Assembly (NCBI RefSeq): GCF_009467825.1 | Contig: NZ_WIOK01000014.1 | Coordinates: forward strand, 62,001-126,000 | Direction: 5' to 3' | DNA length: 64,000 nt | Origin: Cyclobacterium xiamenense | GTDB lineage: Bacteria > Bacteroidota > Bacteroidia > Cytophagales > Cyclobacteriaceae | In this document: piece by piece, positions 22,409-62,092 of the stretch | Position numbering within the stretch: the first letter of the stretch is position 1 | Layout of the letters: the number at the start of each line of letters is the position of its first letter | The notes under the pieces: generated by a model | What the model was told of the DNA's origin: nothing | The model's database searches: none | What the model saw: only the letters and a program-made list of their open reading frames with translations | Made by a program: the position numbers and the translations under genes

Positions 22409-22541
22409 CGTTTTTTTTTTAAGCTTGTCAGGTATCCGAAGAAAGTATTCGGGCAAAGATAAATGCCTTATTTTTTGGAATTGCGGGGATTTCTACTAAC
22501 TTTTGTTACCAAAAAAAGACAAAAAGGTGTATTTAATATAC

Positions 22542-22567
22542 AAAAATACCCCGATCGGGGTATTTTT
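22542..22567. terminator. Perfect 26-base palindrome with T tail, upstream of the DUF6508-like gene
   Basis: AAAAATACCCC, the centre GATC and GGGGTATTTTT form an 11-bp stem with a 4-base loop. Two more T residues follow on the plus strand, so it has the form of a bidirectional intrinsic terminator. It lies in the divergent region before the gene at 22664, not behind any gene, so it may be an attenuator or the end of a short transcript. Confidence 0.7.
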
Positions 22568-22663
22568 TTGATGAAAAAAAAGTTGTTACTTACACGCTCA
22601 AATAAATCATTTTCAAGCGCTTACCAGAAAATTCGTATTTATTTAACCAAAAACCAAAAAACG

Positions 22664-23152
22664 ATGATGAAAGACCAAATTCCGCTGTTTATTCCCCTGG
22701 GGAATTTTTCAGACCACTGCAACTCCCTGGACAGGAAAAAGCTGGTGCCAATAATTGAACTGGTTCACGAAATGGAACTAAAGTTTTACAAGGCCGAAAA
22801 GCTACTGGGCACACAGGATCTCAGCGAATTATCGCTTCGTACCCTGGGCTTGTCGGGGATCCATGTTCGCTTGCTGGATGCCATACTCAAACTTCGCCTG
22901 GTCCCCTTATTTGACTGGATGGCCTGGAAGAGTGAGGCCGAGCGGTATTACAAAGACGCCAGCAACCTGTACGAATTGGACACCGTCACGCTGGGCAAGG
23001 TAATGACCGTACTACTTCGTTCGCAAACCCTCTACGGCCCCGAATTTCTGGAGTCCAAAATCAAAGACCGATTTGTGCTGAATCTGCTAAAAGCAATTCT
23101 CCATTCCGTGGACGGCATCAATTCTTGGAACTATTCAGAAATTTTGGATTAA
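22664..23152 (+). CDS. DUF6508-like protein
   Basis: From the tandem ATGATG at 22664 the protein has 162 residues (MMKDQIPLFIPLG). An ATG at 22463 is in frame, but it lies upstream of a terminator-like palindrome and adds low-complexity sequence, so I reject it. The pattern VPLFDWMAWKSEAERYY, then LDTVTLGKVMTVLLRSQTLYGPEFL and a final LLKAIL resembles DUF6508 (conserved FDW..W, then an L-x2-L-T...R block). These proteins have no assigned function. There is no operon partner. A hairpin at 23261-23280 may end the transcript. Confidence 0.6.
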   Translation: MMKDQIPLFIPLGNFSDHCNSLDRKKLVPIIELVHEMELKFYKAEKLLGTQDLSELSLRTLGLSGIHVRLLDAILKLRLVPLFDWMAWKSEAERYYKDASNLYELDTVTLGKVMTVLLRSQTLYGPEFLESKIKDRFVLNLLKAILHSVDGINSWNYSEILD

Positions 23153-23451: not shown

Positions 23452-26400
23452 ATGGTATTGTACGCAAATCGCTTCGCCCTTTTTTTACTACGATGCTTGC
23501 TTTTAGCTGCCGGCATTTTGTTGCAAGTTGAGGCGAATGCACAACAGGAACCCCGACTGGCACTGGAAACGAACCCCGTTACCTGTTCCGGCGACGGAAG
23601 CATTACCGCTACCTTTGCGTACGATGGGGATGTTTCCGACCTTTTTTTCCAGCTATACCGCCTGCCGGAAGAAGCCCCGCTCGACCAAAATACATCCGGC
23701 GTTTTTTCCGGCCTGGCAACCGGAACCTATCGAGTCGCCGCGAGCTTTACAGCCAATGGCACAGCGCTGGAGATTGCCGAAGAAACTACCCTTGCCTCCG
23801 AATTCGAACCCTTATCGTATTCCATTCAGGCGCAAAACCTGTGCGAAACCGAATTCGGCAGCATTGAAGTCGTCGTCAACCAGGGAAATCCGGCCACCTT
23901 TGAACTGCGGGGAGATACCGAACGCCCGCCGCAACAAAGTCCGGTTTTTGAATCACTTCCCGCCGGTAAATATACCGTGATCGTTACGGATACCTGCGGA
24001 GACCGCCTCTCCCAATCCTTCGAGGTGCAGAAAGCCGAATTCATATTGGACCCCGAATTTCAGCAGTTTCAATCGGAACTAAACAGCTGCGGAGAAATAC
24101 GTGTCGGCCATTTGATTCGCTCGGTCGGCGCCGAAATTGCCTATCCCCTGAACGCTCTTTTTACCGTTCGCAATCCGGATGGGGCCGTTGAGGAAGTCTC
24201 CGTGCAGGTGACTGAAGGTGGGGCCACCGAAGGAGTTATCGTCGGAAACCTTCCCTTTTTTCCCGGGGAAGCCTACAGTTACGACCTGTCCGTAACGGAC
24301 AATTGCGGTCAGGTAGCGCTCCTGGAAAACAATCCCATCGACCGAAGACTTTCCATTTCTAGAGACCTCTTTTGGGGAGCAGGCCTTTGTGGCAAGCGAA
24401 GGCTCTCCATCAAACCCGCCAATTTTGTTGCTCCCTATACCGTTACCTTTGCCGAATACCCCGAAGATTTTGACCCTGTGCTGTTCAACGAAGCCCATCC
24501 GGGGCCGTTTAGCGAGGAAAACCTTTTTTACGGATCCGAAGAAATGCCACTACCCTTCGGTACCTACAGCTTTAGTATCGAAGATGCTTGCGGAAATAGC
24601 GCCTCCATAACCGAGGAATTTAGAGACTTGCTTAGTGGACCCGTTTCCACCGTCTACAAAGGCTGTGGCCCCACTACCGGTTCCCTCCAATTAAATAGTT
24701 TTGATTACGAATTCACCCGCATCGAAATGACCGAAGGACCGGAATCCTTCGCCGGGCAACTTCCCCTGGATCTTTCCGAAAACATCAGTCAAAACGACCC
24801 TAGAAGGTTCTTTATGAATAGCCTGCCGGCCGGAGAATACGAGTTTGTTTCCAATACCACCTGCGGTACGGAACACAGCACCCGGGTCAGCATCGAAGGC
24901 GCCAGTATTCTAACGAACGAAGTGGCCGTAGAAGAAAACTGTGGCTCGTTCAATTTATCGCTGTTCCATGAGGACAACCTGGAAGAAAACCAAACCACAC
25001 GCTTTGGTATTCAGCGACTGAACCCCGAAACCGGCGAATGGGGTCACCCGGAAACTGGGCTTGCATATACGGAAGGAGAAGAGCTGACCGACGAAAATTC
25101 CATCCTTGTCGTCAACCGTGCCACTACCATCAATTTAAGCTATTACGGCAACCTACGCCTGGTAAAGTCCATACGGATATGGAAAAACGGAAGCGACATT
25201 GTCCCCAATCAACCGTCCCACAATTTCTGCCTGGAAACCCTCGAAACCTTTGAAGTAAAGGAGCGCAGCAGCTTTACCAGCTTAAACACCTTTCAATGTG
25301 TGGAAGGAAGCTATGAATTATCCGTGGATGCGACCGGCTATCCGCCCATTACCTACAGAATCGTAGAAAAAGACGGGCTGCCGTTCGCTATCGACAATGG
25401 CCAAAACCCGCTCTTTCAGAACCTGGAGGCAGGAAGGTACCGCTTGCAACTGGAGGATGCCTGCGGCAACCTGACCAATACCACCGTTCAGGTCCGTGGA
25501 GAAAACCTTCCCAAGATCATTCCTGAAAACCTCTGCGAGGGAGAGAATGGATCGCTTTCGGTAAGAAACCTGGACTTCCTGACTTTCGAATGGTTCAATA
25601 CTGCAAACCCCGATGTCATCCTCAGCCGCGAACCCAGCCTGGAGTTCACCCCATTTACGCTGGCATTACACGCAGGCGTTTACGCCGTGCGACTGCGTGA
25701 CGATACCCCCGGAAGTTGTCTAAACGAAGTACTTGAATTTACCCTTGATGAGGATAGCCTCAACCCCCAGTCGGGGCAGGGGCAAGAGGTAACGGTATGC
25801 AAAGGTGAAATCGTCGACCTCTTCGATTTTCTGGATGGCCCGTTTAACGACTACGGGTCCTGGGAAGAGCTTAGCGGCAGCGGGGCCCTGGTGGGCAATG
25901 TATGGTCATCGGCCAACCTGGAGGCGGGCACGTATACCTTTGTATACACCATCTCCGGTATTTGCTCCGGGGAACAATCCACCCAGGTCACCATCAACCT
26001 GAGTGAGGTTCCGCCACCACCTCAAGGAGCAGGCGTGCAGGAATTTTGCAGCCCCGGAGTGTATACCCTGGCAGACCTGATCGTAACCGGAGAAAACATC
26101 CGTTGGTACCTCACCCCGGAGGGGGCCGATGCCCTTCCTGCGGAAAGCGAACTGGAATCCGGAAGGACGTATTACGCAGAACAGCTCTCTGCCGGATGCC
26201 CTTCCGATCGGCGCCTGCCGGTAGCCGTACAAATCTACCCCCAGGTGGCGGGGGTTGATATAGGCGCGTCCCAAACGCTGTACCAGATGGAAGTACCCGC
26301 TATCCTGGAAGGCGAACAACCCGCCGGCGGGTCGGGAAATTTTTCCTTTCAATGGGAGATTCAATCCGAAGAGGGGCCCTGGACAGCAGTGACCGGGGCA

Positions 26401-27459
26401 ACCGAAAAGGATTTTGCTCCTCCCCCCCTGATGGAAACCACGCAATTCCGACGAATCACCCAGGACGAGGTCTGCGGAACCTTTATAAGCAACGAAGTGA
26501 CCCTCAGCATAGAAGTGGCTCCCATGGTTGCCAATAATGATGTCTTTGGCCCATTGAGAAACTACGAAGAACACCGGCTGCCCTCTATTCTGGCGAATGA
26601 TAGCCTCAAATTGGCCCCGGTATCCGGTGGTGAGGTATCTATTTCTATTCTCTCCATCACGGATGAAGCGGGTGTGGAGCAAAACCTGGTGTACTCCCTG
26701 GACGAAAACGGTTCGTTTTTTATTCCGGAAGATACACCGACCGGCACCTACCGCATGGAATACCGAATCTGCCAATCCGAGGTACCGACTAATTGTGCGG
26801 ACGGGATCATTCGACTTCAGGTAATCGGAATCTCCGTGGATCTGGAAAAATCGGTTGACCGAAACCAGGCGGTGCGGGGCGAAATCGTTGACTATTTCAT
26901 TTCCCTTACCAATACCAGTACCTTTCCTTTGGAAGAGGTTTTGGTGACCGAACTGCTGCCCGAGGGATTGGTATTGCTGTCCAGCAGCCCTGCGGTTTCG
27001 GAGCAAGCGACCTGGACCATCCCGGAGATTCAACCAGGCGAAACCGTTCGATTCGAACTATCCGTGCTGGCCGCTGAGGAGGGAAATTACATCAACCAAG
27101 TTCGGGTAGCGGTGAAAAACGTCGAAGAAACGGTTGCAAGCGAAGAGCTTCAAATACGACCAAAGATGGTCGATGTGGCCATCCGGGTAAGCTCCGCGAT
27201 CCAAACGATCCGGGACGGAGACGCGTTCGAATACCTCCTTACCATCACCAATCAGGGAATGGACGAGGCCGAACAGGTCAAAATCGTTGACTTTTTGCCA
27301 CCGAACCTCATTTACCAGGCGTCCAGTAGCCAGAACAGCGGATTGCCCCAGGATCCGCAGTTCCGTCAGGACGGGCAACAATTGATCTGGGAAGTGGACC
27401 GGTTTCCGGTCGGGGCTGAATTGCAAATCCGGGTGACTGTCTTTGCGACGGATGACTGA
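23452..27459 (+). CDS. Giant secreted adhesin-like protein, truncated by an in-frame TGA
   Basis: A 1335-residue product with a signal peptide (FLLRCLLLAAGILLQVEANA, then QQEP). The body is built of repeated beta-rich segments, each with a conserved Cys-Gly motif (DTCGDRL, DNCGQVA, DACGNSA, DACGNLT), resembling SprB-type repeats. An Ig-like part and two DUF11 domains follow (roughly 1125-1335). The second DUF11 domain stops abruptly at ATDD with TGA at 27457-27459. Downstream, in the same frame, RINNRAEVSAGGI completes that domain, and a type IX sorting domain follows. The truncated product could reach the periplasm by Sec but would lack its outer-membrane export signal. A -24/-12 promoter lies just upstream and a PorP/SprF gene follows. 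Confidence 0.85.
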   Translation: MVLYANRFALFLLRCLLLAAGILLQVEANAQQEPRLALETNPVTCSGDGSITATFAYDGDVSDLFFQLYRLPEEAPLDQNTSGVFSGLATGTYRVAASFTANGTALEIAEETTLASEFEPLSYSIQAQNLCETEFGSIEVVVNQGNPATFELRGDTERPPQQSPVFESLPAGKYTVIVTDTCGDRLSQSFEVQKAEFILDPEFQQFQSELNSCGEIRVGHLIRSVGAEIAYPLNALFTVRNPDGAVEEVSVQVTEGGATEGVIVGNLPFFPGEAYSYDLSVTDNCGQVALLENNPIDRRLSISRDLFWGAGLCGKRRLSIKPANFVAPYTVTFAEYPEDFDPVLFNEAHPGPFSEENLFYGSEEMPLPFGTYSFSIEDACGNSASITEEFRDLLSGPVSTVYKGCGPTTGSLQLNSFDYEFTRIEMTEGPESFAGQLPLDLSENISQNDPRRFFMNSLPAGEYEFVSNTTCGTEHSTRVSIEGASILTNEVAVEENCGSFNLSLFHEDNLEENQTTRFGIQRLNPETGEWGHPETGLAYTEGEELTDENSILVVNRATTINLSYYGNLRLVKSIRIWKNGSDIVPNQPSHNFCLETLETFEVKERSSFTSLNTFQCVEGSYELSVDATGYPPITYRIVEKDGLPFAIDNGQNPLFQNLEAGRYRLQLEDACGNLTNTTVQVRGENLPKIIPENLCEGENGSLSVRNLDFLTFEWFNTANPDVILSREPSLEFTPFTLALHAGVYAVRLRDDTPGSCLNEVLEFTLDEDSLNPQSGQGQEVTVCKGEIVDLFDFLDGPFNDYGSWEELSGSGALVGNVWSSANLEAGTYTFVYTISGICSGEQSTQVTINLSEVPPPPQGAGVQEFCSPGVYTLADLIVTGENIRWYLTPEGADALPAESELESGRTYYAEQLSAGCPSDRRLPVAVQIYPQVAGVDIGASQTLYQMEVPAILEGEQPAGGSGNFSFQWEIQSEEGPWTAVTGATEKDFAPPPLMETTQFRRITQDEVCGTFISNEVTLSIEVAPMVANNDVFGPLRNYEEHRLPSILANDSLKLAPVSGGEVSISILSITDEAGVEQNLVYSLDENGSFFIPEDTPTGTYRMEYRICQSEVPTNCADGIIRLQVIGISVDLEKSVDRNQAVRGEIVDYFISLTNTSTFPLEEVLVTELLPEGLVLLSSSPAVSEQATWTIPEIQPGETVRFELSVLAAEEGNYINQVRVAVKNVEETVASEELQIRPKMVDVAIRVSSAIQTIRDGDAFEYLLTITNQGMDEAEQVKIVDFLPPNLIYQASSSQNSGLPQDPQFRQDGQQLIWEVDRFPVGAELQIRVTVFATDD

Positions 27460-27480
27460 CGGATCAACAACCGGGCGGAG

Positions 27481-27810
27481 GTGAGTGCCGGCGGCATCGA
27501 CACTTCTCCCGAAAACAATACCGCGCTGGAGGAAAAAAATATTCTACCCCTATTTATTCCAAACGTGATTAAGCCTGATTTTGACGGGAAGAATGATACC
27601 TTTGTTATACGGGCAACCCATAAGTTTGAACGGGTGGAATTACTGATTTTCAATCGCTGGGGAGATCTGGTATTTGCTTCGGAAGATTACCAAAACGACT
27701 GGTCCGCCGAAGGGCTGCTTGCAGGCACCTATTACTATCAGGTTACCGGCACCGATCCTCAGGGCAAACGAAAAGAATACAAGGGTTGGGTTCAAGTGAT
27801 CAAAGAATGA
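27481..27810 (+). pseudogene. Severed type IX sorting domain of the adhesin
   Basis: In the same reading frame as the adhesin, starting 21 bases after its TGA at the first possible start (GTG); the unbroken frame begins right after the stop at 27460. It holds the end of a DUF11 domain (EVSAGGIDTSPENNTALEE) and then a complete gliding-motility-associated C-terminal domain: LFIPNVIKPDFDGKNDTF, ELLIFNRWGDLVF and GTYYYQVTG. Alone it has no signal peptide and could not be exported, so it is either a decayed tail or is produced by readthrough of the TGA. If joined, the protein would have about 1452 residues. Confidence 0.8.
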
Positions 27811-27811
27811 G

Positions 27812-28789
27812 ATGAGAGGAAGCTATTTTTTATACGGAATGGTGGGAATGCTTGGGCTTTTGACGTTTCAAATCCCCGGTAACGGACAACAAATTCCCCA
27901 ATTCAGCCAGTATACGTTCAATACCTTGCACGTAAATCCGGCCTATGCGGGCTATAAAGTAGATCCCTTCGTACAAGCCACTTACCGGTCGCAATTTGTA
28001 CATTTCCCAGGAGCTCCTCAGACCTTTACCCTTGCTGCGGATATGGGAAACGCCGAGGAGAGCATGGGCTATGGCCTGTCCATTAGTTCGGACCAATTGG
28101 GCCCCAATTCGGTTCATTCCCTACTACTGACGTATGCGTACAAAATACGATTAAACCGGGAAAGTTTTCTGGGACTTGGGATCAGTTCCGGAATCTCCGA
28201 ATACCTGCTGGACGGGGCAAAACTATTGCCGGATGACCCCTCCGATCCGGGTATTCCGCAGGGACGTATCAATGCCTTTACCCCCAATCTAAATGCAGGA
28301 CTGCTCTACCATTCCCCGCGGTTTTTCTCCGGAATCAGTGCCTTCAACCTATTGGGGCAACAGCCACTGCGAAACAAAGACCTGGCTTTGGCTACGCACA
28401 ACTACCATTTCTATTTTCAGGCCGGAGGACTGCTGCCCCTAAGTTCAGCGGTGACCGTCAAGCCCTCCATTCTGGTTCGGGAAGACCTCAACGGTCCGGG
28501 CAGCTTCGACGTGAATGCCATGTTTCTATTTAATGAACGTTTTTGGCTGGGTACCTCGTTTCGTTCCGGTTTTGGCAAAAATGAGCTCCCGGAATCCAGT
28601 AACTTTGCCACGCGAAGGGCCATCGTGCTGCTAATGGACCTGTTTATCACCGAAGACATCCGATTCGGCTACGCGTACGACTTCAATTTGACTAGCCAAA
28701 ATAACTACCGCAATAACAGCCACGAATTTTCGATCGGGTACTACATCCAAAGCAGCTGGCTCAAAAGCCCCGAAAAGCGGTATTTTTAG
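27812..28789 (+). CDS. PorP/SprF family type IX secretion membrane protein
   Basis: A 325-residue protein with a signal sequence followed by the PorP/SprF opening QIPQFSQYTFNTLHVNPAYAGY. The rest is strand-rich, ending with YAYDFNL and FSIGYYIQ blocks, consistent with an outer-membrane barrel. PorP/SprF proteins help export or anchor particular type IX cargo and are commonly encoded right behind a large adhesin, as sprF is behind sprB. Here the gene starts two bases after the stop of the adhesin tail, which points to a dedicated cargo pair. If the adhesin stays truncated, this partner may have lost its client. Confidence 0.9.
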   Translation: MRGSYFLYGMVGMLGLLTFQIPGNGQQIPQFSQYTFNTLHVNPAYAGYKVDPFVQATYRSQFVHFPGAPQTFTLAADMGNAEESMGYGLSISSDQLGPNSVHSLLLTYAYKIRLNRESFLGLGISSGISEYLLDGAKLLPDDPSDPGIPQGRINAFTPNLNAGLLYHSPRFFSGISAFNLLGQQPLRNKDLALATHNYHFYFQAGGLLPLSSAVTVKPSILVREDLNGPGSFDVNAMFLFNERFWLGTSFRSGFGKNELPESSNFATRRAIVLLMDLFITEDIRFGYAYDFNLTSQNNYRNNSHEFSIGYYIQSSWLKSPEKRYF

Positions 28790-33217: not shown

Positions 33218-36172
33218 TTAGTTGACGAGGCTGAATGAGCCCGCTTGTTGGTTTTCCACCGCTTGTGAATCGGTGTACCTAAGCTTGTACAAATAACTCC
33301 CAACCGGCATTTCGATTCCGTTGTGGGTACCATCCCAGCCCTTGCTGTGGATGTCTGAGGTAAAAAACAGCAGTTCTCCCCACCGGTTAAACACCCAAAA
33401 CTGAAGCCCTTTCACCTCGGAAAAAACTGGGAAAAAGTAATCGTTTGGGCTATTCCCGTTTGGGCGGAAAGCAGTGGGTACCCTAAGAAAAAATCCGCTT
33501 ATTTCTACATATTCTTCATAGCTGGTCTGACAACCATTTTCGTCTGCCACGTCCAACCGCACCAAATAGGTACCAGGTTCACCATACCTTACAGTCGGGC
33601 GCTGTTGGGTACTTTCCTGGCCATTTCCAAAATCCCAATGAAACGAATGTCCCTCTCCTGAATCTACCTCAGCGAAAAACTGAATTTCGGAATTTTGAAA
33701 CAACACTCCGGATTCGGTATAGGAGTCAGACGTGAAGGAAAAGGTCGCCTGCATGTCGGGATTCACTACTTGGGTTAGTTCCACTGTTTGACTTACCGTG
33801 CAGCCATTCAGGTCAGCAAGGGTAAGTTGGTACACGCCGTCCGCCAAATCAGGGATTAGATGCTGTCCACTTTCCGGGATTACAACTTGTTCAGAAAAAG
33901 TGCGCGCGGTACCACTTTCTCCTACAATGTCCAGTACAAAAGGTGAGTCTTCGCCCTCGACCGCTAGCACAATCATTCCAAGGGCGTCCTGATCGCAACC
34001 CAGGTCCAGGGTGCTTTCACTTTCCACAACCTCCAGCGCAAAAACCGGAGGGTCGGGTACGATTAATGTGGTTTCGTCACTGCAACCCAGGGAGTCTGTC
34101 ACTTTCACCGTGTATTCACCCGGTGCAACACCGGTTAAGGTAGCGGTGGTAGCCCTGGTGGGGTCGTTCCACAGATACGAAAAAGGCGCCATTCCGCCAG
34201 TCACCGATACGCCGATTTCGTTTTCGTTCTCCTGTCCACAGGTAGTCGAAATAGTCAGCTCTGGCACCAGCGATAAATCATTCTTGTATAGTGTAAACGC
34301 CTGGTAGCAGTCGCTCTCGGGAGAAGGTAAGGCATAGAGCGTCAATTCATCGGTATCCATTGTAAGGGACTTCCCCAAAACAACCCCTTGTTCACCCGGA
34401 TTATTGGGTGGACGCTCGTAAAAATCAGTACCCTCTGGGAAAAATCCAGCAAAGCTGCCAACGATCACCTGATTGGTTTCCGAAACGCATACCGGAATCT
34501 CCAAACCATTTGAATTCCATCCACAGTTCTCTTCGAGAAACGGGTTGCTCGCAACCTCAAAAACCAGCGGGCCGCGGATGGATTGGTTTAAGCAGGTCTC
34601 TGATTGGTTGTAACCCGTAATAAAAGGTATGGGATCAAGGGGAGTTTGGGTGAGCGCATTGTCTCCAAACAGCGTACCGTCAATGGCTACTTCACCGTTA
34701 CAGATCAGCATTAGTTCTGAACAGTTTTCCGAAACATGTACCACATAATCAAACGTACCCACTACATCCTGATTGTCTTCCGTTACCGGTAATTGCCCCA
34801 TTTCCCATACGATCGTCCCGGCGGGTCCACGCGCTGGTTCAAATGAAAAAGCGCCATTGGAGTTTTCGTCAAGAAGTAAATTCGGAGCAGCCTGCGAAAA
34901 AGTGAGGCCTTCCGGTAATGGTATTTCAAGCCTGGATCGATCTACCGCGATCTCACCATTATTTTTTACGGTTGCCCTGAATTCCAACGCATCGCCAGGG
35001 AAGATCTCGGGGGACACTTCGTTTACGGCGATTCCATTTATCGAAATCAATTCGTGAAAAGTCTCCACCGCCACATCATTGGCATCAATGGCCATGGTGA
35101 TGTTGTAGATAACGTACACGTCCCAGGTGGACCCGTACCGGAATCGGGTACGCGTTTGGTTGTTTCCTAGTATTCCATTGTTCGGATTATCGATTTCTAT
35201 AATCGCAATATCCATTCCCGTGTTGTTTTTCAGGTTCGGATTTCTGGGATTACCTCCGGTGTAAATGGAGGAGTTAAAGAAATTAGAAACGTCGTTATTT
35301 CCATGGCTCAGTCTTTCAAAATCGTTCGTCTCCCCTCGTTCGATTGCAAAATAATCGCCATCTGCACCTACGTCCCCTTCACCTGCCATTACCCCCAATT
35401 TCACATGTACATCTCCACTTTCCGTCGCTGAAAAACCAGATACGTCTATGTCATAAAAGGCCGCACCCTGACCTCTTACAAAGGCATAGCCATCAAAAAC
35501 GGAAACGTCTCTTTTTTTCATGACCGGGTTTTCATAGACAACTACCATTCCCCAGCCTCCATAGTGATAATTTGTACCTTCGATCAACCCAATATCTGCA
35601 ACCGTATAGGCTCCTTCTCCCCAGGCCCGTACCCACTCGGTAACGTCCTTGTATCCGACAAACAACCCCAGATCCTCGTTGAGGGAAGCAGGATACCTGA
35701 TCTCGTTATCAGCTGCTTCAAGTTCAAGGTATTCTTGCTGACCCGGCCCTTTGAATTTCACTTTTCGTTTGTCAAACGGTTTGCGGAAGATACCTTTGGT
35801 TACATCAAAGGTAACGTCTGAAGGCCCCCTTCCTGACCAGTATAAGCCGGCAAACAACACCCTGGAGCAAGCAGAATTGGCGCCATTTTCTCTAGAAAAC
35901 TGAAGGGTGGCGGTTGAACTGTTGAACGTCTCGGGGTCGGCATCCACATCGACGAATACCATCATGCCGTCGTTCATCAAATCCTCTCCGTAATTCAATA
36001 AGGTCATGTTGGTATTTCCGATCATGGCAAAATCGCCGTGGATGCTATAAATGGACCGGGATGGAGAGAGAATGGACGTCCGCTCTGAAAAGTCAATTCT
36101 GACCTGCGAAAATAAGGTCTCGGTACCCATAAAAAACAAGAAAATAAGACCTGCGAAAAATTGCCTCTTCAT
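33218..36172 (-). CDS. Secreted surface protein with PKD and type IX sorting domain
   Basis: A 984-residue protein with a signal peptide (FFAGLIFLFFMGTETLFS, then QVRIDF). The N-terminal 380 residues form a beta-rich domain I do not recognise. A DUF11-like domain (around 390-490) and a Cys-rich middle follow. Further on there is a SprB-type repeat (GGMAPFSYLWNDPTRATTATLTGVAPGEYTV, shown by its GGxxPFxYxW core) and a PKD domain (FHWDFGNGQ). A gliding-motility-associated C-terminal sorting domain ends the protein (VPTAFRPNGNSPNDYFFPVF, FWVFNRWGELLF). This intact tail contrasts with the broken one of the other adhesin. It is an expected type IX cargo, attached to the cell surface or released. 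Confidence 0.88.
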   Translation of the reverse strand: MKRQFFAGLIFLFFMGTETLFSQVRIDFSERTSILSPSRSIYSIHGDFAMIGNTNMTLLNYGEDLMNDGMMVFVDVDADPETFNSSTATLQFSRENGANSACSRVLFAGLYWSGRGPSDVTFDVTKGIFRKPFDKRKVKFKGPGQQEYLELEAADNEIRYPASLNEDLGLFVGYKDVTEWVRAWGEGAYTVADIGLIEGTNYHYGGWGMVVVYENPVMKKRDVSVFDGYAFVRGQGAAFYDIDVSGFSATESGDVHVKLGVMAGEGDVGADGDYFAIERGETNDFERLSHGNNDVSNFFNSSIYTGGNPRNPNLKNNTGMDIAIIEIDNPNNGILGNNQTRTRFRYGSTWDVYVIYNITMAIDANDVAVETFHELISINGIAVNEVSPEIFPGDALEFRATVKNNGEIAVDRSRLEIPLPEGLTFSQAAPNLLLDENSNGAFSFEPARGPAGTIVWEMGQLPVTEDNQDVVGTFDYVVHVSENCSELMLICNGEVAIDGTLFGDNALTQTPLDPIPFITGYNQSETCLNQSIRGPLVFEVASNPFLEENCGWNSNGLEIPVCVSETNQVIVGSFAGFFPEGTDFYERPPNNPGEQGVVLGKSLTMDTDELTLYALPSPESDCYQAFTLYKNDLSLVPELTISTTCGQENENEIGVSVTGGMAPFSYLWNDPTRATTATLTGVAPGEYTVKVTDSLGCSDETTLIVPDPPVFALEVVESESTLDLGCDQDALGMIVLAVEGEDSPFVLDIVGESGTARTFSEQVVIPESGQHLIPDLADGVYQLTLADLNGCTVSQTVELTQVVNPDMQATFSFTSDSYTESGVLFQNSEIQFFAEVDSGEGHSFHWDFGNGQESTQQRPTVRYGEPGTYLVRLDVADENGCQTSYEEYVEISGFFLRVPTAFRPNGNSPNDYFFPVFSEVKGLQFWVFNRWGELLFFTSDIHSKGWDGTHNGIEMPVGSYLYKLRYTDSQAVENQQAGSFSLVN

Positions 36173-54928: not shown

Positions 54929-57900
54929 TTGGCCTTTACTTTCTCACATATTTTTTGGAGAAAAAAGTCATTTCATCGGTACAGCATTCTACTTCGCGGA
55001 GTGTTTTGTCTGATGTGCTGTATGTACGTATCCAGCGCTCAGGCCTTTCAGGAGCCGGCTCAGGACAGCATCCCGACGAAAATGGACACACTCAATAAGC
55101 GAAAGGAATTGCCTTCTTTTCTACTTTGGGACGACCTCAATACCCGGCCGCTGTACCCCTACCAAAATCCTTTTTTGCGAAACAAATCCCCCTTTATTTT
55201 CTCTCCCAACCAGGAGCAGCGCATCGAAGTGGAAGTGGATACAGCCGTCAATTACCGCATTTATCAAAACCTGGATTCCGGAGCGCTGGATCCGGGATAT
55301 TCCCTGGACTTCGAAGACTATTCGCGCATGCAGGAATTGCGCATTCGCCAGGAGTATTGGCGCAACCGCTCCCGTGGGCTGGATGGGGAGAGTGCCGTGG
55401 GAGGCCGGGGGCTCATTCCTCCCATCACCATGAGCCCTACCTTCGACCGAATATTTGGGGGAAACGAAATCACCATTGTCCCTACCGGAAACGTAAACCT
55501 GGATTTTGGGGGGATTTTCCGACGCATTGACAACCCCTCCATTCCCATCCGCCAGCAACGAAACGGCGGATTCAACTTCAACCAGCAAATACAGATGAGC
55601 GTCAATGGGATGCTGGGGGAAAAAGTGCGCATCGGGGCCAATTTTGACAGCAACAATTCCTTCGATTTTGAAAACCAGCTGAAGGTAGAATACGCCGGCT
55701 TTGAAGAGGATATCCTGAAAACCATCGAAATCGGTAACGTCAGCATGCCCGTGCAAAACAGCCTGATCCAAGGAGCACAAAACCTTTTCGGCGTCAAAAC
55801 CCAAATGCAATTTGGCAAGCTTTTTATGACCACCGTGGCCTCCACCCAGCGGGGCCGACGGGATGAAATCATCATAGAAGGCGGAAATCAGGGCCGACCC
55901 TTTGAAATTCGTGCATCGGAATACGACGAAAACCGGCACTTTTTTCTCAGTCACTTTTTCCGAAACAACTACGAAAACTGGCTGCGAGGACTTCCGCAGG
56001 TGCTTTCCGGCGTGCAAATCACCCGATTGGAGGTGTATATCATGAACCGGGCAAACAACACCCAAACCCTGCGAAACTTTGCCGCATTCATGGACCTGGG
56101 AGAAGGACAGCGCATCTACAACCCGGAAAATCCCGGGATCGGCAGCGGTAACCCCCAATCCCCGGCATCCAACAACGCCAACGAACTCTACAATACCCTG
56201 CGTAACAATCCCGCTTACCGGGATTTTGAGACTTCCGCGACGGCCATCAGCTCGGATTTGGGTCTGGAACGAGGCGTGGAATTTGAGCAGATCAACGGGG
56301 CCCGAAAACTGGCTGAAAACGAATACACCTTTAACCGGCAGCTGGGGTACTTCAGTTTGTCCCGAAAACTGCAAAACGACGAAGTCATTGCGGTATCGTA
56401 CGAATACACCTACAACGGGCAAAGTTACAAGGTGGGAGAGCTATCCGAAGATTACCAAAACCGACCGGAAGACAACGTGATCTTTATGAAAATGCTGCGC
56501 CCGGCACGGATCAATACCCGCATCCCGACCTGGGACCTGATGATGAAAAACATCTACAACCTGAACGCCAACCAAATTCAGAAAGAGGGCTTTCAATTGC
56601 AGGTAATCTACCGGGACGACCGTACGGGCCTGGACAACCCCAGCTTGCTCGAGGGGCAAAACGTGAAGGATATCCCACTGATACGCCTGCTCAAACTGGA
56701 TAACCTCAACCCCCAAAACGACCCCCAACCCGATGGTAACTTTGACTTTGTACAGGGGCTGACCATTCGGCCCGAACAGGGCCTGGTCATCTTCCCGGTA
56801 CTGGAGCCCTTCGGTGAGACCCTGGAAGACTATTTTCTTCCCTCGGAAGTCAACCTGGTGGATAAATTCGTCTACGACACCCTGTACCGAACCACGCTGG
56901 CGGATGCCGAACTGGTTACCCGGCTCAACAAGTACTTTCTAAAAGGCAGCTTCACCTCCGGTTCCGCTTCGGAAATCATGCTTCCCGGCCTGAACATCAG
57001 CGAAGGGTCCGTTTTGGTGACCGCAGGCAATATCCCCCTGACCGAAGGAGTGGATTATACCGTGGATTACAATATCGGCCGGGTGGTCATCATCAACGAA
57101 GGAATTTTACAATCCGGCAAACGCATCAGTGTTAGCTTTGAAAAAGCCGATTTGGTCTCCTTTCAGACGCGGAGCCTACTGGGAACCCGTCTGGACTACC
57201 TGGTTAACGAAAATTTCACTATCGGCGGTACCTTTCTCTACCTCAACGAACGGCCAAATATCTCCCGAATTGCCACTGGCAACGAAACCTTGCGGAACTC
57301 GCTTTGGGGGCTGGATGTAAATTACGATGAAGAATCCCTGTTCCTGACCAAACTGGCCGATGCCCTGCCCTTTACCGAAACCAAAGAGCCTTCGTTGATT
57401 CAATTCAGCGGTGAATTTGCCCATCTTATCCCAGGCACCTCTAACCAGGTAGACGGAGAGGGCGCCTCCTACATCGATGACTTCGAGACGGCCATCATCC
57501 CATTCAACCTGGGATCCTCTCCTCAAAACTGGAAATTGGCCGCCACGCCACTGACCGAGGACAACCAATTTGACGAAAGTGCCCTTACGGAGGATCGGCT
57601 GGGAAACGCCTACAAACGAGCCAGGCTGGCCTGGTACTCCATCGACAACGTGTTTTACCGACCGGCCGGAAGGGGCGTGCCGCCAAACATCACCAACGAC
57701 GACCGAAGAAATCACTACGTAAGACGGGTGCTGCCTCAGGAGATTTTTCGGGGCCGAAACCGGGACGTGTTGATCACACCGGAACCCTTGTTCGAGATGG
57801 CCTACTTTCCGCACGAGCGGGGCATGTATAACTTTAACCCTTCGTTGGACGCTTCGGGCCTCTTGCCGAATCCCCGGGAAAACTACGGAGGCGTCACCCG

Positions 57901-60900
57901 TGCCATTACCTCGGAAGTGGATTTTGACCGGACCAATATCGAATACATTGAATTCTGGCTGATGGACCCCTTCATTGCGGGGCCAAATGGTCGGGTGTTG
58001 GACGGCGTTTTCAATGAAAACAACACCACCGGTGGTAAATTGGTCTTTAATCTCGGAGAAATTTCGGAGGACGTCATCGTGGACGGCAGGCATGCCTTCG
58101 AAAACGGCCTTCCGGCGGATGGATCGGAGGCAGGGACCGCCGTGAACGAGTGGGGACGGGTGACCAACCAACAGTTTCTGACCCCTGCCTTTGATAATTC
58201 GCCGGAGGCCCGGGAAAACCAAGACGTGGGATTAAACGGATTGAGCAGCGAGCAGGAAGTCGAATTTTATCAGGACCGGTTCCTAAACCGGCTAAACGTG
58301 ACCCCTCAGAGCCTGGAGCAGATTAGCCAGGATCCTGCGGCCGACGATTTTCAGTACTACCTGGATTCCGAATTTGACCAAAACGACGTAAAGATCCTGG
58401 AACGGTACAAAAAGTTCAACGGACTGGAAGGAAACACCCCCATTACCGCCAATACCAACCTGCCCTACACCCCCTCCGGTTCCAACGTTCCCGACAACGA
58501 AGACCTTAACAACGACAATACCCTAAACGAGGTCGAGAGCTATTACGAATACGAAGTGGACCTGCGCCCCGGCGGATTGGAAGTGGGTGAAAACAACATC
58601 GTCGATCAGGTTACCCATATAGAAAATGGGGAAGAGGTGAACTGGTACCTCTTCCGGATCCCGGTGCGGCAACCCGATGCCACGGTGGGAAACATCTCCG
58701 GTTTTAAGTCCATCCGCTTCATGCGTACCTACCTGACGGACTTTCAACAACCCGTGGTCATGCGGATGGGGCATTTCCGGCTGGTGGGTAGTCAATGGCG
58801 AATATTTCAGGAATCCCTCTTCGAAAAAGGATTTTCGGAAATACCCGAGCCCGACAATTCGAACTTTACGGTGGGTGTGGTAAACATCGAGGAAAACGGA
58901 CAGGGAGGCGAAAACCAAAGCCCTTATGTATTGCCTCCGGGTATCTTCCGGGACCGGGACAATACCTCGACAATCGAGCGCCAACTCAACGAACAGTCGT
59001 TGCGCCTCTGCGTGGAAAACCTTCAGAGCCGGGACTCCCGGGCCGTGTTCAAAAACGTAAGTCAGGACCTGGTTCAATACGGCCGCCTGAAAATGTTTTT
59101 GCATGCCGATAGCCAGGATGCCGTCGACGGGGAATTGACTGCCTTCCTGCGCATTGGAACGGACTACACGGACAACTACTACGAAATTGAGGTCCCCTTG
59201 CAGATAACGCCACCCGGCACCCGGGATCCACGGCAAATCTGGCCCCTGGAAAACGAAATCGATGTAGCCATCGACGAAATCGTCGGGGTGAAAGCAGAGC
59301 GGGACAACAACCAGCGTCCCCAAAATATCCCCTATTCCGTACAGGTGCGGCAATACCGGGTAACGGTGGTAGGGCGTCCGGAGCTGAATTTTATTCAGGG
59401 CATGATGATCGGCATCCGCAACCCGGGCATCACCGGAGGAGCCAGTAAATCGGTATGCATCTGGGCCAACGAATTGCGGGCCACGGACTTCAACAAGTCC
59501 TCCGGATGGGCAGCCAACGCCCGACTCAACGCACAGATTGCCGATGTGGCCACCGTTTCCTCCTCCATCCGACACAATACCTTTGGCTTTGGCGGTTTGG
59601 AAACCAGGCTTTCCGAAAGGGCCCGGGAATCCACCACCCAATACGATATTTCCGCCAATGTCAACGTGGACAAAATTCTACCCAAAGGACTGGGTGTAAG
59701 CATACCGCTGTATGTCAGTGTGGAAAATTCCACCACCAAACCGGAATTTGACCCGCTCAACCCGGATGTGCCTTTCGAGATCGCCCTGCAAAAATTCAGC
59801 AGCGATGGCGAGCGGGAAGCCTACCAAAACCTGGTGTTGGACCAATCCAAACGAAACAATTTTAGTCTCAACAATGTCCGCAAAATCCGCAATCCGGAAA
59901 AGGAAACCAACCGGCTGTATGACCTGGAAAATTTCTCGTTTTCCTATGCCTACGGCTCCGTCCGCCAAAGCAATATACAGCTGGAAAGCTACAATTTTGA
60001 GACCTACCGGGGTAGCATTGCCTACAACTTCCAGCCGGACCCCCTGATCGTCACCCCTTTTCAAAAAATGGGGTTCCTGCAAAGCGACCACTTGCAATTG
60101 ATCCGGGATTTTAACATCAATTTTGCCCCCAGCCAGGTGTCCGCAAGGCTGGATGTGGACCGGCGGTTTATGCGTACCCAAAACCGAAACGACCAGCTCA
60201 GCACCGCTGGTGTGGATCCCCTGTTTCAGAAGAGCTTCTACATCAACCGGTTTTATAGCCTGAATTGGGACCTGACAGAAAGCCTTTCCGTGGACCTAAG
60301 TTCCAGCATCAATGCCGTGGTGGACGAGCCGGCGGGAGACCTGGACACAGAGGGTAAACTGGATTCACTGCGCGCCAATATCCGCAGACTGGGAAGAGTC
60401 ACCAACCACAGCCAACAGGCGGTGGTCAATTACAGTGTACCGTTAGAAAAATCCCCCATCACCGACTGGATCAGTGCCGATGTACGGTATGAAGCCACCT
60501 ACAGTTGGCTTACGGGAGCTATCGGCCAGCGAGACAGCCTTGGTAACGTGATCCAAAACTCCCGCGACCGATCGGTATCCGGTAAGCTAGACCTGGTACA
60601 ACTGTACAACAAAAACAAGCGGCTGAATGCCTTGAATGCGCCCAAGCGGCCCACTATCCCGGGCAGGCCACCCACGCCAGCCGCCGAAGGGGACGAGGAG
60701 GAGAAAGACGAACCCTCCACGGAAGGCCTGACAGCCGCGGCGCTGAAATTCCTGATGATGGTAAAAGATATCAACTTCCGTTACCAAATCACGGAAGGCA
60801 CCTTCCTGCCGGGCTACCTGCCAAATACAGGGCTATTTGGTATGGACCGCAGTTTCATGAACCCCGGGTTGGGCTTCGTTTTGGGTAGCCAAAACAGCGA

Positions 60901-62092
60901 CATTCGCTTTGAACTGGCCAATCGCGGGGTACTGGCTGCTAGCACCGCATTGACACAAGCATTTCGGCAGAACCAGTCCAAAAACCTGCAGGTGAGTTCG
61001 CTGATCGAACCCTTAGCCGATTTCCGCATCACCGTAGATTTCCGAAAGCGGGAAAACGGCGACTACAGCGAAATTTTCCGAAGGTCCGGGCCCGGTGCCG
61101 AGGACTTTACCTCCATCAACCCCAACCGCCTCGGCTCCTACAGCATCACCTATAACGCGCTCAGAACGCTTTTCCGAAGACAAGACTCCCAAAATGTCTC
61201 CCCGCTCTTTACGGACTTTGAAAATTACCGCTCCATTATTCAGTCCAGGCTGGAAACCGAAAACCCCGGCGGTGCGTACAACATCAACGGGCAGAACGTG
61301 CTGATACCGGCCTTTCTGGCGGCATATTCCGGGCAGGAAGCGGGAACGGTCTCGCTAAACCCCTTCCCAAAACTACCCCTGCCCAACTGGCGCGTGGATT
61401 ACGGGGGGCTGGCACGCTTACCTGCCTTGAGCGAATACTTCTCCTCCATCAATCTGACCCATAATTATGCTTCCCTGTACGAGGTGAGCAATTTTTCCAA
61501 TGCGCTGATTTATCAGGAAGGTCTGGAACTGTACAACACCCTTCAACAGCTACCCCTACCCAGCATGACCGATGAATTTGGCGCATACATTCCGATCCTT
61601 ATCTTAAATCAGGTGGTTATTTCCGAACGCTTCGCTCCGCTGATTGGAGTGGACCTGTTGACCAAGGACCGCATGAACATCAGTTTCGAGTACAACACGG
61701 AACGAAACATTGGCTTGAATTTTTCGAATGCGCAGGTCACCGAACAAAATAGCCAGGATTTTCGGTTTGACCTGGGCTATACCAAAGCCGGTGTAAAGGT
61801 GCCCTTCAAAATCCAGGGAAGGCAAGAGGTGCTCAATAACGACCTAACCATTCGCATCTCCACACGAATCGTAGACACAAATACCATTCAACGCAAGATC
61901 GAAGGAGAAAACACGCTCACGAACGGAAACCTGAATGTTCAATTACGCCCCAGTGTCGGCTACGTAGTCAACCAAAAACTCAACATACAGTTTTATTTTG
62001 ACCGCACCATCAATGACCCCAAAGTATCCACAGCATTCCGAAGAAGTTCTACTTCTTTCGGCGGACAATTGACATTTAATTTAAGTCAATAA
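54929..62092 (+). CDS. sprA: SprA, type IX secretion translocon / gliding motility protein
   Basis: Giant outer-membrane barrel, the translocation pore of the type IX secretion system. A 2387-residue protein. The frame opens with TTG at 54929; no ATG precedes it, and the signal peptide (RYSILLRGVFCLMCCMYVSSAQA) would be damaged by starting later. Cell-surface SprA features visible: QIQMSVNGMLGEKVRIGANFDS, GAQNLFGVKTQMQFGKLF, SFEKADLVSFQTRSLLGTRLD and the C-terminal strand region ending TSFGGQLTFNLSQ. An acidic, Pro-rich insert (GDEEEKDEPSTEG) near residue 1920 is a likely loop. It follows ruvA by 10 bases. Substrates probably include the two sorting-domain proteins at 23.4-36.2 kb. Confidence 0.95.
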   Translation: MAFTFSHIFWRKKSFHRYSILLRGVFCLMCCMYVSSAQAFQEPAQDSIPTKMDTLNKRKELPSFLLWDDLNTRPLYPYQNPFLRNKSPFIFSPNQEQRIEVEVDTAVNYRIYQNLDSGALDPGYSLDFEDYSRMQELRIRQEYWRNRSRGLDGESAVGGRGLIPPITMSPTFDRIFGGNEITIVPTGNVNLDFGGIFRRIDNPSIPIRQQRNGGFNFNQQIQMSVNGMLGEKVRIGANFDSNNSFDFENQLKVEYAGFEEDILKTIEIGNVSMPVQNSLIQGAQNLFGVKTQMQFGKLFMTTVASTQRGRRDEIIIEGGNQGRPFEIRASEYDENRHFFLSHFFRNNYENWLRGLPQVLSGVQITRLEVYIMNRANNTQTLRNFAAFMDLGEGQRIYNPENPGIGSGNPQSPASNNANELYNTLRNNPAYRDFETSATAISSDLGLERGVEFEQINGARKLAENEYTFNRQLGYFSLSRKLQNDEVIAVSYEYTYNGQSYKVGELSEDYQNRPEDNVIFMKMLRPARINTRIPTWDLMMKNIYNLNANQIQKEGFQLQVIYRDDRTGLDNPSLLEGQNVKDIPLIRLLKLDNLNPQNDPQPDGNFDFVQGLTIRPEQGLVIFPVLEPFGETLEDYFLPSEVNLVDKFVYDTLYRTTLADAELVTRLNKYFLKGSFTSGSASEIMLPGLNISEGSVLVTAGNIPLTEGVDYTVDYNIGRVVIINEGILQSGKRISVSFEKADLVSFQTRSLLGTRLDYLVNENFTIGGTFLYLNERPNISRIATGNETLRNSLWGLDVNYDEESLFLTKLADALPFTETKEPSLIQFSGEFAHLIPGTSNQVDGEGASYIDDFETAIIPFNLGSSPQNWKLAATPLTEDNQFDESALTEDRLGNAYKRARLAWYSIDNVFYRPAGRGVPPNITNDDRRNHYVRRVLPQEIFRGRNRDVLITPEPLFEMAYFPHERGMYNFNPSLDASGLLPNPRENYGGVTRAITSEVDFDRTNIEYIEFWLMDPFIAGPNGRVLDGVFNENNTTGGKLVFNLGEISEDVIVDGRHAFENGLPADGSEAGTAVNEWGRVTNQQFLTPAFDNSPEARENQDVGLNGLSSEQEVEFYQDRFLNRLNVTPQSLEQISQDPAADDFQYYLDSEFDQNDVKILERYKKFNGLEGNTPITANTNLPYTPSGSNVPDNEDLNNDNTLNEVESYYEYEVDLRPGGLEVGENNIVDQVTHIENGEEVNWYLFRIPVRQPDATVGNISGFKSIRFMRTYLTDFQQPVVMRMGHFRLVGSQWRIFQESLFEKGFSEIPEPDNSNFTVGVVNIEENGQGGENQSPYVLPPGIFRDRDNTSTIERQLNEQSLRLCVENLQSRDSRAVFKNVSQDLVQYGRLKMFLHADSQDAVDGELTAFLRIGTDYTDNYYEIEVPLQITPPGTRDPRQIWPLENEIDVAIDEIVGVKAERDNNQRPQNIPYSVQVRQYRVTVVGRPELNFIQGMMIGIRNPGITGGASKSVCIWANELRATDFNKSSGWAANARLNAQIADVATVSSSIRHNTFGFGGLETRLSERARESTTQYDISANVNVDKILPKGLGVSIPLYVSVENSTTKPEFDPLNPDVPFEIALQKFSSDGEREAYQNLVLDQSKRNNFSLNNVRKIRNPEKETNRLYDLENFSFSYAYGSVRQSNIQLESYNFETYRGSIAYNFQPDPLIVTPFQKMGFLQSDHLQLIRDFNINFAPSQVSARLDVDRRFMRTQNRNDQLSTAGVDPLFQKSFYINRFYSLNWDLTESLSVDLSSSINAVVDEPAGDLDTEGKLDSLRANIRRLGRVTNHSQQAVVNYSVPLEKSPITDWISADVRYEATYSWLTGAIGQRDSLGNVIQNSRDRSVSGKLDLVQLYNKNKRLNALNAPKRPTIPGRPPTPAAEGDEEEKDEPSTEGLTAAALKFLMMVKDINFRYQITEGTFLPGYLPNTGLFGMDRSFMNPGLGFVLGSQNSDIRFELANRGVLAASTALTQAFRQNQSKNLQVSSLIEPLADFRITVDFRKRENGDYSEIFRRSGPGAEDFTSINPNRLGSYSITYNALRTLFRRQDSQNVSPLFTDFENYRSIIQSRLETENPGGAYNINGQNVLIPAFLAAYSGQEAGTVSLNPFPKLPLPNWRVDYGGLARLPALSEYFSSINLTHNYASLYEVSNFSNALIYQEGLELYNTLQQLPLPSMTDEFGAYIPILILNQVVISERFAPLIGVDLLTKDRMNISFEYNTERNIGLNFSNAQVTEQNSQDFRFDLGYTKAGVKVPFKIQGRQEVLNNDLTIRISTRIVDTNTIQRKIEGENTLTNGNLNVQLRPSVGYVVNQKLNIQFYFDRTINDPKVSTAFRRSSTSFGGQLTFNLSQ

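Follow-up and report, generated by a model that had tools for sequence, protein, structure and literature searches.

Cargo proteins of type B in the type IX secretion system (T9SS) need a sorting domain and usually a cognate PorP/SprF protein (excerpts of PMC10202324 and PMC9143113). In the type B domain of SprB from Flavobacterium johnsoniae each of five tested motifs (A-E) is necessary for secretion (PMC12618676, excerpt), and according to an excerpt of PMC10202324 more than 200 residues are required. The pairs SprB-SprF of this species and PG1035-PorP of Porphyromonas gingivalis (PMC9143113 and PMC10202324, excerpts) resemble a locus of the marine bacterium Cyclobacterium xiamenense, which we analyzed within a window of 64,000 nucleotides (contig C12, positions 62001-126000, in a genome of 5,782,277 bases and 97 contigs). 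Here, too, a likely signal peptide, a large modular ectodomain and a C-terminal TIGR04131/PF13585 domain are encoded, and a PorP/SprF gene is adjacent. Unlike in the described pairs, the sorting domain of the C. xiamenense protein is severed by an in-frame TGA. Probably, a nonsense mutation specific to this strain arose recently and keeps the protein in the periplasm.

The severed sorting domain and its partner gene

The frame of the surface protein, read with translation table 11, begins with the ATG at 23452 and comprises 1,335 codons up to the TGA at 27457-27459, which lies in the context GAT GAC TGA CGG. Past this stop the identical frame stays open from 27460 to 27807. Reading of the frame thus bore out the position of the stop and the open continuation given in a preliminary description of the locus. 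The following features are relevant:

23452-27456, plus strand: truncated surface-protein frame, 1,335 amino acids, with a likely signal peptide, Ig_7, one complete DUF11 domain and a second DUF11 domain cut before its last full strand (open reading frame, profile matches, AlphaFold model for the domain break)
27457-27459, plus strand: premature TGA; glycine codon in 18 of 18 named relatives (sequence, orthologue codons)
27460-27807, plus strand: open tail of 116 amino acids in the unchanged frame, with the end of the second DUF11 domain, a linker and a type B T9SS sorting domain (profile matches, alignment)
27556-27801 (C12:89556-89801), plus strand: complete type B sorting domain, TIGR04131/PF13585 (profile matches)
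27808-27810, plus strand: TGA stop codon at the end point of the full-length orthologues (alignment)
27812-28789, plus strand: intact PorP/SprF family protein, likely shuttle or anchor partner, whose ATG lies one base past the full-length stop (TIGR03519, 232.3 bits; PF11751, 234.4 bits)

The tail alone matched TIGR04131 with 37.1 bits (cut-off 35; profile positions 3-84 of 85) and PF13585 CHU_C with 81.7 bits (cut-off 27; positions 2-86 of 86). For the C. salsum orthologue the values were 32.8 bits, slightly below the cut-off, and 74.0 bits, respectively. When the stop was read as X, the second DUF11 match reached positions 1-110 of 114 of the profile. The profile matches confirmed that the tail completes the DUF11 domain and contains a complete type IX sorting domain. 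Hence, the domain expected for T9SS type B cargo is encoded, and it is absent from the product translated under table 11. In the AlphaFold model of the C. salsum orthologue (mean predicted local distance difference test, pLDDT, 80.2; the sorting domain is modelled poorly, at about 47-73), the matching glycine is residue 319, at which the last full strand of the DUF11 match 224-341 begins (strand 319-330). The N-terminus aligns with those of the relatives and resembles a Sec signal peptide, as judged by eye only. The protein had been called a giant adhesin; with about 1,450 amino acids at full length it is large but not giant, and the role of an adhesin is presumed.

A sequence search of the PDB with the tail gave a sole match at E values up to 1, Grappling hook protein A of Aureispira sp. 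CCB-QB1 (PDB 9flp; E 7.6e-9, and 3.2e-17 with the orthologue profile). The match sits at the C-terminal end of that chain. Unlike the protein studied here, Grappling hook protein A has 5,898 residues, and the comparison covers the tail match only. A Foldseek structure search returned beta-sandwich proteins at low template-modelling (TM) scores and was not used.

As had been noted before, the PorP/SprF gene just downstream of the full-length stop is intact, and a second component of the system is likewise encoded in the window:

55223-62083 (C12:117223-124083), plus strand: intact SprA, the T9SS translocon (2460.7 bits)

Genome-wide, TIGR04131 gave 12 matches, 11 of them over the cut-off. Only the 116-residue tail contains the domain alone in an open frame; the other 11 matches (10 over the cut-off) belong to open frames of 309-3,393 amino acids. 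Since these frames are open and SprA is intact, a loss would concern the interrupted protein alone. C. qasimii (PMC3744694) and C. plantarum (PMC7232363, excerpt) have been described as non-motile, so that a role in gliding is not implied.

Some further type B sorting domains were recorded. One lies in the same window at 33224-33484 on the minus strand (C12:95224-95484; 53.5 bits) within an open frame of 986 amino acids without internal stop. Another, at C82:81029-81277 on the plus strand, belongs to an unusually short open frame of 309 amino acids, which may encode either a small or a truncated cargo. At C73:41394-42962 on the minus strand we found a paralogue of the C-terminal half, 980 amino acids long and with a sorting domain of its own, which has counterparts of 979-982 amino acids in all 12 genomes of the genus.

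The codon at the stop in related genomes

A search with the C. salsum protein revealed an orthologue in 12 of 12 Cyclobacterium genomes; the family is about 1,455 amino acids long and adjoins PorP/SprF. The collections compared contained one genome per species. Ten of the 11 other Cyclobacterium genomes possess a single open frame of 1,460-1,478 amino acids without internal stop, the eleventh, C. qasimii, is frameshifted, and none of the 11 has a stop at this site. Outside the genus, at least ten likely orthologues of 1,399-1,478 amino acids are unbroken. Judged by these sequences, the gene is otherwise kept intact across the genus. The opposite case, that the orthologues all end at this point and a separate sorting protein follows, was overturned, because they continue as one frame.

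The codon at the stop position specifies glycine in all 18 named loci (GGA in seven, GGG in five, GGC and GGT in three each). These loci (L024-L041, among which L040 may be a paralogue) are those whose match spans the whole query, out of 69 found by a contig scan with an orthologue alignment; an earlier scan with the window protein had confirmed no relative. A separate alignment of 14 rows showed glycine at the site in 12 of 13 relatives, the distant L017 being the exception. The comparison of codons suggested in the preliminary description therefore gave glycine throughout the named loci and no stop. The relatives also support the single substitution suggested there, while the example of GGA to TGA goes too far, as the closest three relatives differ (GGG, GGG and GGC) and leave the ancestral glycine codon undecided.

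With its counterparts in nine other Cyclobacterium proteins, which have no stop at this position, the tail shares 69-82% identity, and its open continuation is thus not due to chance. In a tail search of 390 genomes of the family, in which at most 11 candidates were scored per genome, at least 226 genomes had a match at E 1e-14. Among 150 matches listed, a count by hand gave five open frames below 300 amino acids, namely that of C. xiamenense and four cut by contigs, starting 4 to 416 bases from the contig start. Apart from those at contig ends, these matches included no other sorting domain in so short a frame.

Like the single-stop nonsense and spurious pseudogenes of bacterial assemblies (PMC11017572, excerpt), the locus comprises a conserved gene that is intact except for one in-frame stop. 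It differs in that the stop removes an export tag and part of one domain and leaves 92% of the protein. C. halophilum IBRC-M 10761 (FNZH00000000) belongs to the same species as C. xiamenense, with an average nucleotide identity of 97.8% (PMC7232363, Table 2, excerpt).

The frameshifted orthologue of C. qasimii was considered as a second, independent loss and rejected. Relative to the genome of a relative (G010) it has four one-base deletions, all of them at homopolymers. In 200 kb of the contig that carries the orthologue (G007:C110; loci L015, L031 and L125), a break was flagged in 20 of 131 comparable open reading frames (ORFs); in 15 of these, including this gene, it was a frame change. The flags are raw, and start-site effects may account for some of them. 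Roche 454 sequencing at 22x was used for this genome (PMC3744694). Together, these data point to sequencing error, although six neighboring ORFs that were matched had no breaks. Gene losses derived from this 454 assembly, with its frequent frame changes, are unsafe.

Age of the stop and quality of the assembly

To test for selection on the tail, nonsynonymous divergence (dN) on single branches was calculated from triples, for which three sister species and three outgroup species were used. In the tail, dN was 0.048-0.059 on the C. xiamenense branch and 0.051-0.066 on that of the sister; for the part before the stop, the ratio of the two branches (C. xiamenense/sister) was 1.03-1.41. Decay beyond the stop was thus not found, as expected if the stop is very recent; an excess dN of about 0.03 would be detectable. 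Columns that are invariant in the 12 other species compared (C. qasimii excluded) were altered in C. xiamenense at none of 48 positions in the tail and at eight of 243 before the stop. Since the tail counts of the control species are also near zero (C. salsum and C. plantarum 0/48 each, 1_MG-2023 1/49), the invariant columns by themselves say little. We estimate that constraint on the tail may have been absent for no more than a few per cent of the C. xiamenense branch; this age limit is rough because synonymous sites are saturated (proportion of synonymous differences, pS, about 0.7). As selection on the tail is not relaxed, the stop is either very young or absent from the real DNA.

ORFs of relatives were compared with 153 kb of C. 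xiamenense on C12 (three relatives) and 120 kb on C73 (two relatives). Comparable were 43 of 113 (G006), 56 of 124 (G003) and 43 of 112 (G001) ORFs on C12, and 65 of 103 and 62 of 105 on C73; many of the rest were spurious or outside the shared stretch. Among the roughly 105-120 comparable ORFs of the two genome regions, the TGA at 27457-27459 is the sole confirmed interior stop. Other flagged stops in C. xiamenense were dismissed, as they fell among the first 34 residues of the query ORF, where they reflect the choice of start, or on residue 432 of 433 of one ORF. The G+C content across the window is 47-52% (8-kb steps). As far as the compared frames reveal, the region is neither decayed nor obviously poor.

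An error in base calling or assembly would mean that the true codon is a sense codon and that the cell surface displays the full-length protein. An isolated single substitution, an unrelaxed tail and compared ORFs otherwise free of confirmed interior stops would all agree with it. Internal-stop pseudogenes in public assemblies are reported to be errors in many cases, with an influence of platform, coverage, read quality and assembler (PMC11017572, excerpt). The probable source assembly, WIOK00000000, is listed at 100x (PMC7232363, Table 1, excerpt), which is below the 200x at which no such pseudogenes arose from simulated paired-end reads (PMC11017572, excerpt). On the other hand, the ORFs compared show a clean sequence around the stop; moreover, Illumina runs are highly repeatable, and E. 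coli assemblies from Illumina generally contain the fewest pseudogenes of this kind (PMC11017572, excerpt), which bears on the present assembly only if this was the platform used. We consider an error unlikely, though it deserves to be kept in mind, and infer that the base is real in the organism. If it were an error, one more false pseudogene would have to be corrected.

According to the nonsense mutation that we favor, a single-base substitution in the sequenced strain (probably CGMCC 1.12432) would have converted the conserved glycine codon to TGA very recently. Translation would stop within the second DUF11 domain. The truncated product would keep its likely Sec signal peptide and should enter the periplasm by Sec, where it would stay or be degraded. 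It would lack the last 116 residues, and with them the motifs within the last 100 residues for type IX export and for the PorP/SprF partner as well as part of the region upstream of them, so that it would not be displayed on the surface. Because the PorP/SprF ATG lies one base past the normal stop, the premature stop may also lower PorP/SprF translation, provided that this depends on ribosomes arriving from upstream. The cargo gene likewise ends with TGA, one base before the next ATG, in four of 13 relatives (C. salsum, C. roseum, C. jeungdonense and SYSU L10401).

Three points weigh against a real nonsense mutation. The base is known from one assembly of one strain, a rare base-call error would likewise appear as a single isolated substitution, and the unrelaxed tail suits an error, a very young mutation and functional readthrough equally. 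A real stop would amount to a natural truncation: a type B cargo without its sorting domain next to an intact PorP/SprF partner. It would offer a small ready-made test, in Cyclobacterium, of the functions of sorting domain and partner; it would also be a sign that the surface protein can be lost, perhaps in culture. Neither a real stop nor an error alters a general idea; the cause is an ordinary one. Among the four explanations put forward in the preliminary description, the single recent substitution confined to this strain is supported by the relatives and an error retains the low probability given above, while a phase variant and a recoded stop found no support, as detailed below.

Readthrough, recoding and reversible change

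Readthrough of the UGA, whether leaky or programmed, would occur at a low, regulated rate, helped by the TGAC context and by the hairpin described below. It would yield a small amount of full-length protein on the surface in addition to a periplasmic form, which would predominate. One gene would then supply both, and the stop codon would act as a switch of type IX export. In its favor, the tail is under constraint, and TGAC is a weak termination context in E. coli. However, TGA terminates 36 of 116 conserved ORFs of the genome, and five of these 36 stops are TGAC, which makes this context an ordinary one. Release factor 2 (RF2) is present with 487.3 bits (cut-off 370). A possible RNA structure was found downstream of the stop:

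27472-27511, plus strand: predicted RNA hairpin of 16 pairs 3' of the premature stop, judged not significant (folding)

The hairpin begins after 12 unpaired bases and has a folding energy of -21.5 kcal/mol alone and -23.0 kcal/mol within a stretch of 81 nt. Only 5-10 of its 16 pairs are retained in the 13 relatives tested, and none of the relatives examined has the stop, so neither element is conserved. Its z-score is -0.97; a fold at least as good was obtained for 70 of 1,000 synonymous recodings and for 345 of 1,425 windows along the gene. Furthermore, pS is as high in the tail as elsewhere and gives no sign of a constraint at the RNA level. Readthrough is therefore very improbable in our opinion.

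An in-frame TGA followed by conserved coding sequence is also typical of selenocysteine or other recoding of UGA. The locus differs from these systems, since a genome profile search gave no SelB over the cut-off (best 184.6 bits versus 242.25) and a genome search gave no tRNA-Sec over the cut-off (best 41.6 bits versus 47), and since no TGA was found at this site in the relatives examined. Seven weak tRNA-Sec matches were dismissed, as they coincide with ordinary Ser, Leu, Tyr, Val and Trp tRNAs. A TCA anticodon, which would read UGA, occurred in none of 36 tRNAs obtained by scanning RF00005 matches with ARAGORN; in that search 150 of 263 candidates were scored, and as an excerpt of PMC7232363 lists 39 tRNAs for what is probably the same assembly, some may be unseen. 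Selenocysteine and a suppressor tRNA were rejected on these grounds. Among the open-access papers listed in literature searches we found nothing on a type IX cargo cut by a stop, nor, in titles and the starts of abstracts, on stop-codon readthrough of this kind in Bacteroidetes. Nothing in the sequence marks the site as a recoding site, with which weak leakiness would still be compatible. Most likely, it does not represent a new way of reading genes.

Within the tail, at 27477-27484, a Shine-Dalgarno-like sequence, GGAGGTGA, was noticed. It overlaps an in-frame GTG at 27481, encodes conserved AEVS residues and is probably there by chance. Internal restart at this GTG was rejected because its product would lack a signal peptide and because Bacteroidota make little use of Shine-Dalgarno sequences.

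Surface proteins often vary, and a lesion that removes the export tag only could suit reversible on/off variation or a mixed population at the codon. The change is, however, a substitution, and the codon lies in no repeat or homopolymer, which spoke against the phase variant proposed earlier. In addition, the sole paralogue found of the C-terminal half, that on C73, is an open frame, and the 150 matches listed from the family contained no other sorting domain off the contig ends in a frame below 300 amino acids. We give reversible variation hardly any credence. It is similarly doubtful in the extreme that selection has favored the truncated protein as a functional form in the periplasm. Its front part carries no further lesions, but according to the model the stop would split a beta-sandwich domain before the last full strand, which argues against a stable new end, and there has been no time yet for any signal of selection.

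The comparison of ORFs also yielded two minor observations. A flagged frame change on C73 near 20,200 was traced to an over-long ORF prediction with an over-predicted start. Upstream of the surface-protein gene, a predicted ORF of 229 amino acids at 22463-23152 on the plus strand has stops within its first 60 codons in three relatives; the real gene is therefore probably its shorter downstream part.

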